A stretch of DNA of 64,000 bases, from NCBI RefSeq assembly GCF_004570385.1, contig NZ_SPQL01000002.1, positions 1-64,000 of the forward strand, given 5' to 3'. Under the pieces are notes generated by a model. That model had not been told where the DNA came from and did not search any database. It saw only the letters and a program-made list of their open reading frames with translations. Position numbers and translations under genes: made by a program. Positions 14,269 to 35,043 of the stretch are shown here, piece by piece (within the stretch, counting starts at the first letter, position 1; each line of letters opens with the position of its first letter). Source of the DNA: Blastococcus sp. CT_GayMR19 (GTDB lineage: Bacteria > Actinomycetota > Actinomycetes > Mycobacteriales > Geodermatophilaceae).

Positions 14269-15331
14269 GGGCGTCCTGCGCCGACTGGTCGACGAGCCGG
14301 CCGGTGTGACCGACGACGATCGCGCCCACGTCGCCGCCTGCCCGGCCTGCCTGGCTGCACTGGACACCGCCCGCGCCGACGCGCGGCTCGTCGGCGCCGC
14401 GCTGGCGACCTCCGGCGCCGTCGACACCGACGCGGCGTGGGCCCGGCTCTCGACGACGACCGCGACCGCCGCACCGCGGCCGGCTGCCTTCAGCAGCCGG
14501 CGGAGCCGCTGGCGGACGACGGTTCGCCGTCCCGCGATCGCCGCACTCAGCGCGGTGGTCCTGGTGACCGGAGCGGGCGTCGCCGCGGCCAACGACTGGC
14601 TGCCGATCTTCCAGACCGAGCGCGTCGATCCGGTCGAGATCACCTCGACCGACCTCGTCCAGGTGCCCGACCTGTCCGCCTACGGCGACCTCGAGGTCAC
14701 GAAGGAACCGGCGCCGGAGCAGGTGGCCGACGCGGCCGCTGCCCGTGAGCGGACCGGTCTCGACGTCCCCGAGGTGGCCGAGCTGCCCGAGGGCGTGACC
14801 GGGACCCCGGCCTACCAGGCCGCCGGCGTCGCGAGCGCCACGTTCACCTTCTCGGCGGCGAAGGCGGCCCAGGCGGCCGCCGCCGAGGGCGAGGTCCTGC
14901 CGCCCCCGCCCGCCGGGCTCGACGGCAGCTCGCTGCGGCTCGATGCCGGTCCGGCCGTCGCGGCGATCTGGTCGCAGCCGACCGGCGTGCCGACGCTCGT
15001 CGTCGCCCGGGTGGTCGCACCCACGGTCTACTCGTCGGGCGTGCCGTTCGAGACCGTGCGCGACTACCTGCTGTCCCTCCCCGGCCTGCCCGACGGGCTC
15101 GCGGACCAGCTGCGCGACCTATCGGCCGAGGGCGGAACGCTGCCGCTGCCCGTACCGGCGGAGCTGGTGACCAGCTCCACGGCCGACGTCGGCGGCTCGG
15201 AGGCGACCGTGCTCACCTCCCGCGACGGGCTCTTCGCCGGGGTGGTCTGGGTCGAGGACGGGGTGATGACGGGTGTCGCCGGAACGCTGAGCGCCGACGA
15301 GCTCCTGTCGGTCGCCCGTGACCTCAGCTGA
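14252..15331 (+). CDS. Membrane anti-sigma factor with zinc-binding (ZAS-type) N-terminus
   Basis: The 359-aa protein starts with a short cytoplasmic domain holding the ZAS-like motif His26-X3-Cys30-X2-Cys33 (HVAACPACL). One transmembrane helix follows at about 95-112 (AIAALSAVVLVTGAGVAAA), and then a large extracytoplasmic domain of some 245 residues. The gene overlaps the sigma gene, so the two are coupled. The extracellular part probably senses an envelope or periplasmic signal; its ligand is not apparent. Confidence 0.85.
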   Translation: MRHPSEGVLRRLVDEPAGVTDDDRAHVAACPACLAALDTARADARLVGAALATSGAVDTDAAWARLSTTTATAAPRPAAFSSRRSRWRTTVRRPAIAALSAVVLVTGAGVAAANDWLPIFQTERVDPVEITSTDLVQVPDLSAYGDLEVTKEPAPEQVADAAAARERTGLDVPEVAELPEGVTGTPAYQAAGVASATFTFSAAKAAQAAAAEGEVLPPPPAGLDGSSLRLDAGPAVAAIWSQPTGVPTLVVARVVAPTVYSSGVPFETVRDYLLSLPGLPDGLADQLRDLSAEGGTLPLPVPAELVTSSTADVGGSEATVLTSRDGLFAGVVWVEDGVMTGVAGTLSADELLSVARDLS

Positions 15332-15337
15332 GGCCAC

Positions 15338-15343
15338 TAGCGT
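15338..15343 (+). promoter_or_regulatory. Leaderless-type -10 element (TAGCGT)
   Basis: TAGCGT ends 7 nt before the GTG at 15351 with no Shine-Dalgarno between. This predicts that the ABC exporter genes start their own leaderless transcript just after the anti-sigma gene. Confidence 0.55.
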
Positions 15344-15350
15344 CCGGGGA

Positions 15351-16337
15351 GTGACCACCGAGATCCCGGCCGCGGCCCCCACGGCCGACGTGCTCGCCGG
15401 CCTGCCGGCGTCGCCGGCGGTCTGGTGCTCCGGTCTGCGCAAGCGGTACGGACGCCAGACCGCCGTCGACGACGTCTCCTTCACGGTCGCCCGCGGCGAG
15501 GTGCTGGGCCTGCTGGGCCCCAACGGTGCCGGCAAGACCAGCGTCATCAAGATGCTGCTGGGCCTCGTGCAGCCCGACGCGGGCGAGGTGATGCTGCTCG
15601 GCCGGCGGTCGTCCGATCCACGGTCGCGCAGTGCCGTCGGCTACCTGCCCGAGCTGTTCCGCTACCAGCCGTGGCTGACCCCGACCGAGGTGCTCGACCT
15701 GCACGTCCGGCTCTCACGGGCCGACGTCGGTGCCTCCGAGAGCCGCGAGTGCCTGGCCCTCGTCGGCCTGGCGGACCGTGCCGGCGACCGGGTCGGCGGG
15801 TTCTCCAAGGGCATGCAGCAGCGGCTCGGGCTCGCGGTCGCGCTGGTCGCCCGGCCGGAGCTCGTCGTGCTCGACGAGCCGACGAGCGCGCTCGACCCGC
15901 TCGGCCGGGTCGACGTCCGGGACCTCGTGCTCTCGCTGAAGTCGCGCGGCATCGCCGTGCTGCTCAACTCCCACCTCATCGGGGAGGTCGAGCGCGTGTG
16001 CGACCGGGTGGTGATCCTCGACAAGGGCCGGGTGGCGGCATCGGGCAGCCTCGCCGAGCTGCTGGTTCAGCGCGAGGTCCGGCTGCGGCTGGCCGACGCG
16101 GACGGCCGTGCGGAGGACCGGATGCGCGCCTCCGGCACGCTGACGCGCAGCGGCGACTGGTTCACCGTCCAGCTCGCCGCGGACGACGACGGCGTCACCG
16201 TGCCCGACCTGGTGCGCGACCTCGTCGGCCTGGGTGTCCGCGTGCACGCCGTCGAGCCGGCGCGGATCAGCCTCGAGGAGCGCCTGCTCGCCGTGCTGCG
16301 GCACGAGGAGCCCGCCCGCGCGGAGCCCGCCCCGTGA
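15351..16337 (+). CDS. ABC exporter ATP-binding protein
   Basis: The 328-aa ATPase has Walker A GPNGAGKT (near residue 57), signature FSKGMQQRL, Walker B LVVLDEPTSALDPLGR and an H-loop region LLNSHLIGE. The C-terminal roughly 100 residues form the extension typical of CcmA/NatA-type exporters. The GTG at 15351 is preferred because of the -10 box just before it. Its stop codon overlaps the GTG of the first 77-bp repeat unit, and the partner permease lies beyond the repeats. The substrate is unknown. Confidence 0.93.
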   Translation: MTTEIPAAAPTADVLAGLPASPAVWCSGLRKRYGRQTAVDDVSFTVARGEVLGLLGPNGAGKTSVIKMLLGLVQPDAGEVMLLGRRSSDPRSRSAVGYLPELFRYQPWLTPTEVLDLHVRLSRADVGASESRECLALVGLADRAGDRVGGFSKGMQQRLGLAVALVARPELVVLDEPTSALDPLGRVDVRDLVLSLKSRGIAVLLNSHLIGEVERVCDRVVILDKGRVAASGSLAELLVQREVRLRLADADGRAEDRMRASGTLTRSGDWFTVQLAADDDGVTVPDLVRDLVGLGVRVHAVEPARISLEERLLAVLRHEEPARAEPAP

Positions 16338-16414
16338 CCGAGCTTGCGAGGTCACGGACGGACACGGCACCGCCGGTCGCGTGGCCGACGAGCGCCGGCG
16401 AGGAGGGCACGTGA
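16334..16414 (+). CDS. Mini-ORF 1 of the 77-bp repeat (26 aa)
   Basis: GTG at 16334 overlaps the ATPase stop. The peptide begins VTELARSRTDTAPPVAW and ends PTSAGEEGT. The stop at 16412-16414 overlaps the GTG of unit 2. It is likely to be translated by coupling if the junction works like other GTGA overlaps here, but the peptide may have no function beyond carrying ribosomes forward. Confidence 0.4.
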   Translation: MTELARSRTDTAPPVAWPTSAGEEGT

Positions 16415-16491
16415 CCGAGCTTGCGAGGTCACCGATGGACACAGCACCGCCGGTCGCGTGGCCGACGAGCGCCGGCGAGGAGGGCACGTGA
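16411..16491 (+). CDS. Mini-ORF 2 of the 77-bp repeat (26 aa)
   Basis: Second copy, beginning VTELARSPMDTAPPVAW. It differs from copy 1 at two residues (Pro-Met for Arg-Thr). It overlaps both neighbours by GTGA. Conservation of the frame across copies may simply reflect recent duplication. Confidence 0.4.
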   Translation: MTELARSPMDTAPPVAWPTSAGEEGT

Positions 16492-16568
16492 CCGAGCTTG
16501 CGAGGTCACCGATGGACACGGCACCGCCGGTCGCGTGGCCGACGAGCGCCGGCGAGGAGGCCACGTGA
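16488..16568 (+). CDS. Mini-ORF 3 of the 77-bp repeat (26 aa)
   Basis: Third copy, with the same peptide as copy 2 except Ala for Gly next to the C-terminus (EEAT). Its stop overlaps the GTG that starts the permease at 16565. The GAGGAGG inside its end is also the ribosome-binding site of the permease. Confidence 0.4.
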   Translation: MTELARSPMDTAPPVAWPTSAGEEAT

Positions 16569-17416
16569 CCGCACTGATCATCGCCGGGCTCACGTTGCGC
16601 GAGGCCGCCCGACGGCGGGTCGTGTGGGCACTCCTGGCGCTCACCGTGGTGCTGCTCGCGCTCAGCGGCTGGGGCTTCTCGAAGCTGATCGGCCTGGACA
16701 GCGAGCTGGGCACCATGACCAGCGGGGAAGCACGCCTCGTCGCCTCGCTGCTGCTCAACCTGATCATGTTCGGCTTCAGCCTCATCGCGGCGATCGGCAC
16801 GGCCTTCCTCGCCGGGCCCACCCTGGCCGGCGAGGTCGAGTCCGGGCAGGCGCTGGCGATCCTCGCCCGCCCGGTCCGCCGCTCGGCCGTGCTGCTTGGG
16901 AAGTGGCTCGGCCTGGCCGCCTTCGGCTGCGGTTACGTGATCCTGGCCGGCCTCGCCCAGATCCTCGTCGTCTTCTTCGTGGTCGGCTATTGGCCGCCGG
17001 CGCCGGCCACCGGGCTCGCGCTGCTCGCGGCGGAGACCGTCGTGCTGCTGACGCTGGCTCTCCTGCTGTCCAGCGTCGTCTCGCCGATGGCCTCGGGCAT
17101 CGTCTCCGTCGGGCTGTTCGGGGCGACGTGGGTCGCCGGAGTGGTCGGGGGGCTCGGCGGGGCGCTGGGCAACGAGGGCGTCGAGCGCGTGGGCATCGTG
17201 TCGCGGATGATCCTGCCCACCGACGGGCTGTGGCGCGGGGCGATGAACGGCTTCCAGGACCCGGGCGCCCTCTTCCAGATGAACGCCGACGAGGGGGGTG
17301 GGTTCCCGTTCCTGGCCGACGCCCCGCTGACCCCCGCGTACCTGGTCTGGGCCGCGGTGTGGATCGCCGTGATCTGGGGTCTGACCGCGCTGTCCTTCTC
17401 GCGCCGCGACGTGTGA
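16565..17416 (+). CDS. ABC-2 type exporter permease
   Basis: The 283-aa integral membrane protein begins VTALIIAGLTLREAARRRVV and has about six hydrophobic segments, including ALLALTVVLLALSGWGF, LIMFGFSLIAAIGTAFLAGP and TLALLLSSVVSPMASGIVSV. This topology and the position after an exporter ATPase mark it as the membrane half of the same ABC system. The GTG at 16565 follows GAGGAGG and overlaps the third mini-ORF. The exported substrate is unknown. Confidence 0.85.
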   Translation: MTALIIAGLTLREAARRRVVWALLALTVVLLALSGWGFSKLIGLDSELGTMTSGEARLVASLLLNLIMFGFSLIAAIGTAFLAGPTLAGEVESGQALAILARPVRRSAVLLGKWLGLAAFGCGYVILAGLAQILVVFFVVGYWPPAPATGLALLAAETVVLLTLALLLSSVVSPMASGIVSVGLFGATWVAGVVGGLGGALGNEGVERVGIVSRMILPTDGLWRGAMNGFQDPGALFQMNADEGGGFPFLADAPLTPAYLVWAAVWIAVIWGLTALSFSRRDV

Positions 17417-33243: not shown

Positions 33244-35043
33244 TCAGCTCCCCGAGAAGGGCGGCACCTCGAGTGCGAGCGCCTCGCCGGCCACCCGGTC
33301 GATCTCGGCCGACCCTCCCTCGGCATCGGGGTCGACCCAGGCCGCCTCCACGATCGTCACGGTGGAGCCCGAGAGCGCACTGGCGTACTCCGCCCCCGAC
33401 AGCTCGGCCGGGCTGCCCGAGTACCGGACGCCCTCCCGCAGCAGGTCGCTGACGTTGCCGCTGCCGTTCTGGTCGGCGAGCGACCGCAGGTCGCGGGCCG
33501 CCGTCGCGTCGGGCATCTGCACGCGGATCACCGAGACGACGACGTCCTCGCCACCGACGTCGGTCGAGTAGAGCGCCCGCGAGAGCCCGGTGCAGTCGGT
33601 GCCGCCGAACGACTCGGCGACCGCCCCGTACGCGTGCCCGGCGCAGGTGTCCTTCAGGTCCACGGCCTGGACGGTGTAGCTCGTCCCGGCGACCGCCTGG
33701 ACGTCGCCCACCTCCGGTCCAGGCGGAGCGTCCGCGGTCGGGGAACCCCCCGCGGTCCCGCGGCTGCCCGCGCCGTCGTCGCTCTGGCCACCCAGCAGGA
33801 GCCACCCGCCCACGCCGAGCAGCACGACGACCACGAGCGCGGCGGCGACGAGGAGACCGGTGCGCCGGCCGGAGCCCCGCTCCTGCGGTTCGTCCACCGA
33901 CGGCTCCGCCGCCTCGGCGGAGCGGCTCCAGAAGGCGACCGGCGGGGCGTCGGGTGTCTCCGCCTGCGGCTGGGCCGGGAACACCGACGTGCGGGGCGGC
34001 GGACCGGACGCGGGGAACACCGACGTGCGCGCGGACGACTCGGCGTCCGCGCGGTCCGGCTCGGCGTCGGAGAAGAGGCCGGCGATCCCGGCGTCGTCGT
34101 CCTGCGGGGCGTCGATCGCCACCGTGTCGCGCTGCGCGGGCACCGTTCCCGCCGGCGGCTGCGCGACCGCGGGCGGGGCCTGCTGCGCGACCGCGGGCGG
34201 GGCCTGCTGCGCGGCCTGCGCTGCTGCTGCCGACGCGGCCACCGCCTGGGCGATGGCCTCCGGTGAGGGCTGCTCACGCACCGGGGGGACGGGGGCCGGC
34301 CCCGGCGACGATGCGGGTGCGGCCGGCGCCTCGGGTGCAGCGGATGCGCTGGCCGCCATGGCCGCGGGAGTGAGCAGGTCCGCCCGCCGAAGGACGTAGG
34401 GCGAGTACGGGAAGCTCTCGCCGTTGAGCTCCTCCACGGTGGGCCCGCGTCCCTCCAGGCCGAGCGCCTCGAGGGCGGCCCGGACGTCGGCCGTCGTCCA
34501 GAGACGCGGGTTGTCGACGCCGGCGTACCGGCTGGCCCGTGCGATCCCGAGCAGCAGCGAGCGCGGCTCGAGGAGGGCGACCTGGTCGCCCTCGCCGAGA
34601 TCGCCGTCGGCCGGGAGCAGCCCCGTGACGTTCCCGACCAGGATCGTCAGCCGGGCGATCCGGCCCGGTTCGAGGCCGGCCCTCCGCAGCTTCATGGCCG
34701 TGTCCATGCCGGCCCGCATGAGGCCGTCGAGCGGGGTCGAGCCGCCGCCGGAGAGCTGGAGGGCCTGGCTCGGGCCGGATTCCGGGGCGATGGTCCAGGC
34801 ACCCTCGGGGGACGCCGTGACGACGCCGGACTGCCGGACGATCTCGGCGATCCGGACCACCGCCAGCCCCTCCGGGACGAACAGGACGGCGTCGGACATC
34901 CGGCGCTGCGACGCACCGTCCGCGAGCGGGATCGAGGCCATCACCGCGGCCCGGACCGAGCCGCCGGTGTCCCAGCGGGTGAGCTCGCCGAAGACCGCGC
35001 GTTCCCCCGCCGTCTTCAGGGGCACCGGGGTGAGGGCCAGCAC
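33244..35043 (-). CDS. Single-pass membrane protein with cytoplasmic domain, proline/alanine linker and external domain
   Basis: The 599-aa protein starts MLALTPVPLKTAGERAVFGE. It has a folded N-terminal domain of about 200 residues, then a low-complexity linker (repeats of APPAVAQ at about 280-295 and of TSVFPA near 345 and 357), and one membrane helix at about 402-424 (LLVAAALVVVVLLGVGGWLL). An external C-terminal domain of about 170 residues has two cysteines. The GTG at 35043 follows GGAGG. No enzyme motif was recognised; the layout suits a sensor or scaffold of the cell envelope. Confidence 0.72.
   Translation of the reverse strand: MLALTPVPLKTAGERAVFGELTRWDTGGSVRAAVMASIPLADGASQRRMSDAVLFVPEGLAVVRIAEIVRQSGVVTASPEGAWTIAPESGPSQALQLSGGGSTPLDGLMRAGMDTAMKLRRAGLEPGRIARLTILVGNVTGLLPADGDLGEGDQVALLEPRSLLLGIARASRYAGVDNPRLWTTADVRAALEALGLEGRGPTVEELNGESFPYSPYVLRRADLLTPAAMAASASAAPEAPAAPASSPGPAPVPPVREQPSPEAIAQAVAASAAAAQAAQQAPPAVAQQAPPAVAQPPAGTVPAQRDTVAIDAPQDDDAGIAGLFSDAEPDRADAESSARTSVFPASGPPPRTSVFPAQPQAETPDAPPVAFWSRSAEAAEPSVDEPQERGSGRRTGLLVAAALVVVVLLGVGGWLLLGGQSDDGAGSRGTAGGSPTADAPPGPEVGDVQAVAGTSYTVQAVDLKDTCAGHAYGAVAESFGGTDCTGLSRALYSTDVGGEDVVVSVIRVQMPDATAARDLRSLADQNGSGNVSDLLREGVRYSGSPAELSGAEYASALSGSTVTIVEAAWVDPDAEGGSAEIDRVAGEALALEVPPFSGS

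Follow-up and report, generated by a model that had tools for sequence, protein, structure and literature searches.

The window analysed here is a stretch of 64,000 nucleotides from the genome of Blastococcus sp. CT_GayMR19 (contig NZ_SPQL01000002.1, positions 1 to 64,000). Three tandem units of 77 bp lie in it between an ABC transporter ATPase gene and the gene of an ABC-2 family permease (Table 1). TRF gave a period of 77 bp in 3.1 copies with 96% matches at 16333-16571, so the three near-identical units of the preliminary description are real. Identity among the three was 96-97%, and at most 0.896 to other 77-bp units compared. Each unit holds a mini-ORF with a GTG start, 26 codons and a stop. 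The ATPase stop TGA lies inside GTGA at 16334-16337, and the ATPase, the mini-ORFs and the permease are joined by four 4-nt stop-start GTGA overlaps. Both this chain, which had been claimed earlier, and the GTGACC...GGTCAC repeat said to open each unit were borne out by the sequence. A perfect 24-bp tandem repeat of 2.3 copies was noticed elsewhere in the window, at 34158-34213.

Table 1. Features at the ATPase-permease junction (window coordinates).
Feature	Position	Strand	Details
ABC transporter ATPase gene	15318..16337	+	ORF; PF00005 E 1.5e-29; stop TGA 16335-16337 overlaps unit 1
Unit 1, 77 bp	16334..16410	+	mini-ORF 16334-16414, translated VTELARSRTDTAPPVAWPTSAGEEGT and stop
Unit 2, 77 bp	16411..16487	+	mini-ORF 16411-16491
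Unit 3, 77 bp	16488..16564	+	mini-ORF 16488-16568; stop overlaps permease start GTG 16565
ABC-2 family permease gene	16565..17416	+	283 codons and stop; PF12679 E 2.2e-13; ORF end
Shine-Dalgarno-like GAGGAGG, unit 1	16400..16406	+	sequence; also 16477-16483, 16554-16560; 4 nt to next GTG
5' hairpin, unit 1	16334..16355	+	GTGACC-GA-G[CTTG]C-GA-GGTCAC; also 16411-16432, 16488-16509; includes mini-ORF start codon
3' hairpin, unit 1	16375..16416	+	register i+j=125; also 16452-16493, 16529-16570

The unit belongs to a dispersed family. A DNA search returned 43 matches in the own genome. A sequence-only model, R1, was built by aligning 28 units of the own genome, 27 of which belong to the 42 units first read or their neighbours, and it found 54 places at E<=1e-3. 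These correspond to 50 loci, two of them triple arrays; 49 lie beyond the ATPase-permease array. The units fall into two subfamilies, GTGACC and GTGAGC. Single units made up 45 of the 47 own-genome arrays, and array length among genomes ranged from 1 to 7. The longest array seen has seven tandem units before one gene (L131, G009:C51:4350-6015), and the second triple 77-bp array of the own genome, of the GTGAGC subfamily, is located about 100 bp downstream of a tRNA gene (L002, G000:C3:68751-68987). At another locus (L039, G000:C35:183690-184691) four short equal-score matches exactly 324 bp apart probably represent a long repeat within a gene. BLAST matches were found in 25 of 41 relatives, the own genome counted, namely in 16/16 genomes of the genus, 7/9 of the rest of the family and 2/16 of the rest of the order, the latter two at about 9e-4. 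With R1 at E<=1e-5, 33 of 150 genomes of the order matched, 20 of these in the same family, and a genome of another family (G147) had at least 30 matches. R1 also matched 10 of 148 genomes of the class, eight of which belong to other orders. Units in seven loci matched no curated Rfam family at E<=1, and a known RNA family was rejected as their identity. Carriage by plasmids or phages was rejected as well: phages gave no match, and the only plasmid match, 39 bp in an ABC gene, was put down to chance.

The copies are placed at the starts of genes. A coding ORF, called by length and GC pattern, follows directly downstream on the same strand in all 47 own-genome arrays read. As a fallback, the preliminary description had considered a dispersed repeat compatible with the frame, and this is the correct identity: the unit is scattered, yet in phase with genes. 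The genome-wide search it had suggested showed scatter over many sites (the 54 places above), but not out of phase with genes, since every own-genome array read stands before a coding ORF. By context, the 47 arrays comprised 26 with a 4-nt overlap with the upstream coding ORF, 3 near a stop, 5 with a TANNNT box (4-9 nt before GTG), 4 with a Shine-Dalgarno (SD) sequence and 9 unclassified. Over all genomes, a coding ORF started at the 3' end in 100 of 109 arrays, and the 109 contexts were 55 overlaps, 13 boxes, 11 SD, 5 near a stop and 25 unclassified; 4 more with the box carry both marks. The TANNNT box, which in these sequences precedes 56 of 5113 GTGA sites, suggests leaderless starts. A start codon was found near the 3' end of 137 of 144 non-redundant units; among the 137, spacing was 77 in 104 and the start was RTGA in 136. 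All 19 downstream and 11 upstream proteins of a hand-chosen set had Pfam matches, read as FliH-FliI, FlgN-FlgK, SdhA-SdhB, RibBA-RibH and others. At ATGA targets the element often retains GTGA at its left end (L033, L017, L020), and GTGA therefore seems to be part of the element.

Relatives often lack the unit at the same place. The ATPase-permease junction is empty, a bare 4-nt stop-start overlap, in 13 of 14 congeners, the exception being one unit in G002, and in 22 of 23 named loci, the exception being three units in B. capsensis; four contigs are common to the two sets. With nothing intervening in the 13 congeneric loci, the two genes are indeed normally adjacent, as had been assumed. At the same junction, G169, a member of another genus of the family, carries an array of about three units (locus L138) that belongs to the other subfamily and includes a partial duplication; this locus was met through the unit search and stands outside the two rates. 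The comparison of unit number across relatives proposed earlier thus gave 0, 1 or about 3 units; the number does vary, which permits copy-number tuning and goes no further. On a tree of 45 rows, with L138 placed by the permease only, unit number needs 4 changes, at least three of them forced by well-supported branches. At ten other own-genome loci the unit was left out, its two flanks were fused and the result was searched against 16 genomes of the genus, the own included; at nine of the ten loci at least one congener aligned straight across the unit-free junction among the matches listed. L005 had no unit-free junction in congeners among the matches listed from these 16 genomes, and G004 looks occupied at the L036 locus. 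The 28 congener alignments that span the junction, at eight loci, had a start codon at the junction in each case, RTGA in 23 and GTGG in 5; as spanning alignments only, they give no rate of empty sites. The dispersed copies at start codons, together with the empty junctions, argue that the unit is mobile, a mini-element that settles exactly on start codons, whether in operon overlaps or at starts that look leaderless or have an SD. Strictly independent insertions at the ATPase-permease junction were rejected, as the nearest relatives of the window units include the same-locus units of G002 (0.896) and B. capsensis (0.87-0.883). By their sequence likeness the window, G002 and B. capsensis units may come from one old insertion with precise losses; the G169 array, being of the other subfamily, is separate.

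The mini-ORF with its 4-nt overlap was intact, after cleaning, in 52 of 55 first units at overlap sites, 23 of 35 units at leader sites, 26 of 32 tandem-internal units and 4 of 5 near-stop units. Between overlap and leader sites the difference had a Fisher p of 8e-4 in a post hoc contrast over all genomes; in the own genome alone it was 25/26 against 11/14 (p 0.11). The relay thus seems to be kept where coupling exists; against this, the units at leader sites were slightly more diverged (p 0.012). Length variants were in frame in 6 of 9 cases at overlap sites and 2 of 11 at leader sites (p 0.065); over all contexts 13 of 33 were multiples of three. Variation was alike at the three codon positions (entropy 0.78, 0.73 and 0.70), so nothing favours a peptide, and a peptide function of the mini-ORF was rejected. 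The retention of coupling through mini-ORFs at overlap sites is supported. The coupling proposed in the preliminary description is upheld by the anatomy and by the post hoc contrast, which is not significant in the own genome taken alone.

Two hairpins were recognised in the unit; the second and larger one, on the 3' side, had escaped the preliminary description, as had the GAGGAGG within each unit and the 49 other loci. Pairing statistics were taken from 99 unique 77-bp units, with shuffles that ignore relatedness. The 5' hairpin, register i+j=23, had 0.975 Watson-Crick, wobble or G.A pairs, and the next register 0.844; with Watson-Crick and wobble pairs only it fell to 0.721 and was exceeded by a five-pair helix at i+j=15 (0.806). 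The 3' hairpin, with 19 pairs, reached 0.915 with G.A and 0.627 without, against at most 0.647 and 0.543 in other registers with at least 10 pairs; one four-pair register had 0.841. Its outer stem pairs with the next start-codon region, its inner part has tandem G.A pairs, and the SD lies in its 3' strand. The tandem G.A pairs 7-8/15-16, 54-55/70-71 and 57-58/67-68 were each retained in at least 0.91. Pair 5-18 was formed in 98 of 99 units (shuffle mean 47.3), as CG, GC, AT, TA and wobble types, and in the 3' hairpin 43-82 was formed in 90 (46.7), 50-75 in 84 (60.8) and 49-76 in 61 (39.6). Part of the covariation signal is carried by the two subfamilies; the occurrence of A-T and T-A at pair 5-18 speaks for compensatory change on more than one occasion. 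At other pairs, e.g., 46-79 and 51-74, covariation was not seen among the 99 units. Minimum-energy folding was near that of shuffles (RNA z -0.81, 21/99 below -2; DNA z -0.02). By eye, units in other orders have GNA loops in place of CTTG (L264, L268) or a shortened C[GAA]G 3' hairpin (L263, L268, L269), and in L267 the 3' hairpin is paired throughout and closed by a CTTG loop. In columns 36-44 of the 99 units, column 37 tracks column 82, the fifth base of the downstream start region, closer than does its pairing partner, column 43, as if columns 36-38 mimicked the target and competed for arm 42-44.

The preliminary description knew of no described system of this kind; the mycobacterial MIRUs are one, going by passages of three sources. 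A review describes them in part of its text as mini-elements that are mobile and sit on start codons, overlapping by -4 (PMC12548453), H37Rv has three identical 77-bp MIRU units between senX3 and regX3 (PMC4213456, in one passage), and a gene leaderless in M. marinum has a counterpart in M. bovis with a 77-nt 5' UTR that equals one MIRU (PMC4128351, likewise). The Blastococcus unit is like MIRU in being short, with a mini-ORF that overlaps both neighbours by DTGA (in the 52 overlap-site first units and in this array), in its many dispersed copies on the strand of the downstream gene, in its insertion at start codons that are empty in relatives, and in its tandem arrays of variable length. It differs in having two hairpins, loops of the CNNG and GNYR types and arms that can pair with GTGANC, and in that R1 detected no sequence homology with mycobacterial copies. 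MIRUs are reportedly without dyad symmetry, which the Blastococcus unit does possess; the MIRU copies compared here also fit a hairpin if G.A pairs are counted. Of 10 genomes from a PE-rich genus, which we take to be Mycobacterium, 9 had matches to a MIRU-type pattern and none to its reversed control. The copies had mostly DTGA-type ends, GAGGAG before the start and, in some cases, a 53-bp tandem. Against 29 of 30 MIRU loci (L143 omitted) R1 gave 8 hits of at most 17.6 bits and none on the MIRU core; homology by R1 was rejected, as the best of these chance hits compares with at least 28 bits for class-wide R1 hits. Seventy-two MIRU copies fit one G.A-rich hairpin register at 0.892, against at most 0.685, with the cap GC[GNA]GC; a single typed consensus, tested by shuffling, gave 21/2000. 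The search pattern fixed the loop and the 3' strand, so only the 5' strand tests this hairpin independently, and the copies are nearly identical and thus give no covariation. Matches to a MIRU10 primer, with 1-2 mismatches, occurred in 2 of 396 genomes; at one of the two loci (L140) there is a MIRU-like motif. Several Mycobacterium-like genomes (G233, G125, G473, G073) are rich in MIRU-type units, seemingly a wider distribution than the one given in a passage of PMC4213456, namely M. leprae and the M. tuberculosis complex. MIRU-like elements outside mycobacteria were not reported in open-licence literature among the matches listed. The Blastococcus units are MIRU-like but a distinct family in soil actinobacteria.

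We regard it as highly probable that Geodermatophilaceae harbour a MIRU-like mobile mini-element, of which these units are copies, and that it inserts at RTGA starts and passes coupling on via its mini-ORF. A 77-bp element with its own GTGANC left end would insert immediately 5' of an RTGA start codon, presumably with no target duplication. At a stop-start overlap the upstream gene would then stop on the GTGA of the element, the ribosome would restart on the mini-ORF, and the mini-ORF would stop on the RTGA of the downstream gene, with GAGGAGG of the element as putative SD. Coupling would be handed on, not broken. One insertion at the ATPase-permease junction was probably duplicated locally to three units.

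Compatible with this, and different in what is selected, is a selfish element, whose hairpins would serve transposition and whose frame would be kept at overlaps only because breakage harms the host. We lean slightly towards this view. It agrees with the loss of the relay at 12 of 35 leader sites, with the loop exchange from CTTG to GNA seen by eye in other orders, and with L013 and L030, in which the start codon is lost (GCGACC) and the arms GGTCGC and GGGCGC keep the changed pair; DNA folding equal to that of shuffles speaks against it, as does the mobilising enzyme not found in the search with PF01797. A rather doubtful reading is an RNA gate, in which the 3' hairpin would hide the downstream SD and start codon until a ribosome on the mini-ORF opens it. 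The outer stem and the recurrence of pairs 43-82, 50-75 and 49-76 fit such a gate, but 43-82 partly follows the two subfamilies and so is not independent, and computed start-codon pairing was 0.74 against 0.68 with the interior shuffled, that of the SD only 0.47. Selection on unit number as a means of setting the ATPase:permease ratio is very unlikely: unit number does differ at the junction (3 in the window, 1 in G002, 3 in B. capsensis, about 3 in G169) and needs the 4 changes on the tree, but three of these may be one gain and two losses, the same element precedes unrelated genes (S9, isocitrate dehydrogenase, carboxyltransferase), and single units prevail in the own genome while most relatives have none at this junction.

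Subterminal hairpins occur in the single-stranded DNA elements REP/RAYT and IS200/IS605, together with short internal arms that can pair with the target, and by this analogy the Blastococcus unit resembles them. It differs from them in that PF01797, the Y1 transposase, had no match in the own genome and 15 congeners (0/16); 2 of 31 genomes matched overall, both in other families. Y1/RAYT mobilisation was rejected on this result, in a search that covered PF01797 only. An autonomous partner was also rejected among the partial hits inspected: L181 was a degenerate remnant, and L182 (G000:C14:127510-129147) a 38-bp internally deleted unit. The latter still forms a mini-ORF with a 4-nt ATGA overlap, and the gene after it is presumably panB. 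Streptomyces telomere DNA hairpins have, according to a passage of PMC7205883, CTTG or GNA loops with sheared purine pairs, loop types which also occur in Blastococcus-type units and MIRUs. These hairpins are chromosome ends and the Blastococcus units interspersed repeats, so this is an analogy only; the shared loop types are a lead pointing to a possible function as single-stranded DNA. An unlikely but conceivable extension places these units and the MIRUs of mycobacteria in a single class of single-stranded DNA elements, as its two branches. Their hairpins, with CNNG or GNA loops and tandem G.A pairs of the sheared type, and their internal GTGANC-complementary arms would guide insertion to start codons, and an undiscovered enzyme would mobilise them. 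If the reading were true, base pairing would give the targeting of start codons and the mini-ORF relay the harmlessness.

A second abundant family with no detectable homology to MIRU offers a comparative system: the same operon junctions can be compared empty and filled, array length runs from 1 to 7 units, and the hosts are environmental. It makes testable how such elements locate start codons, and whether the stop-restart relay costs or tunes expression.
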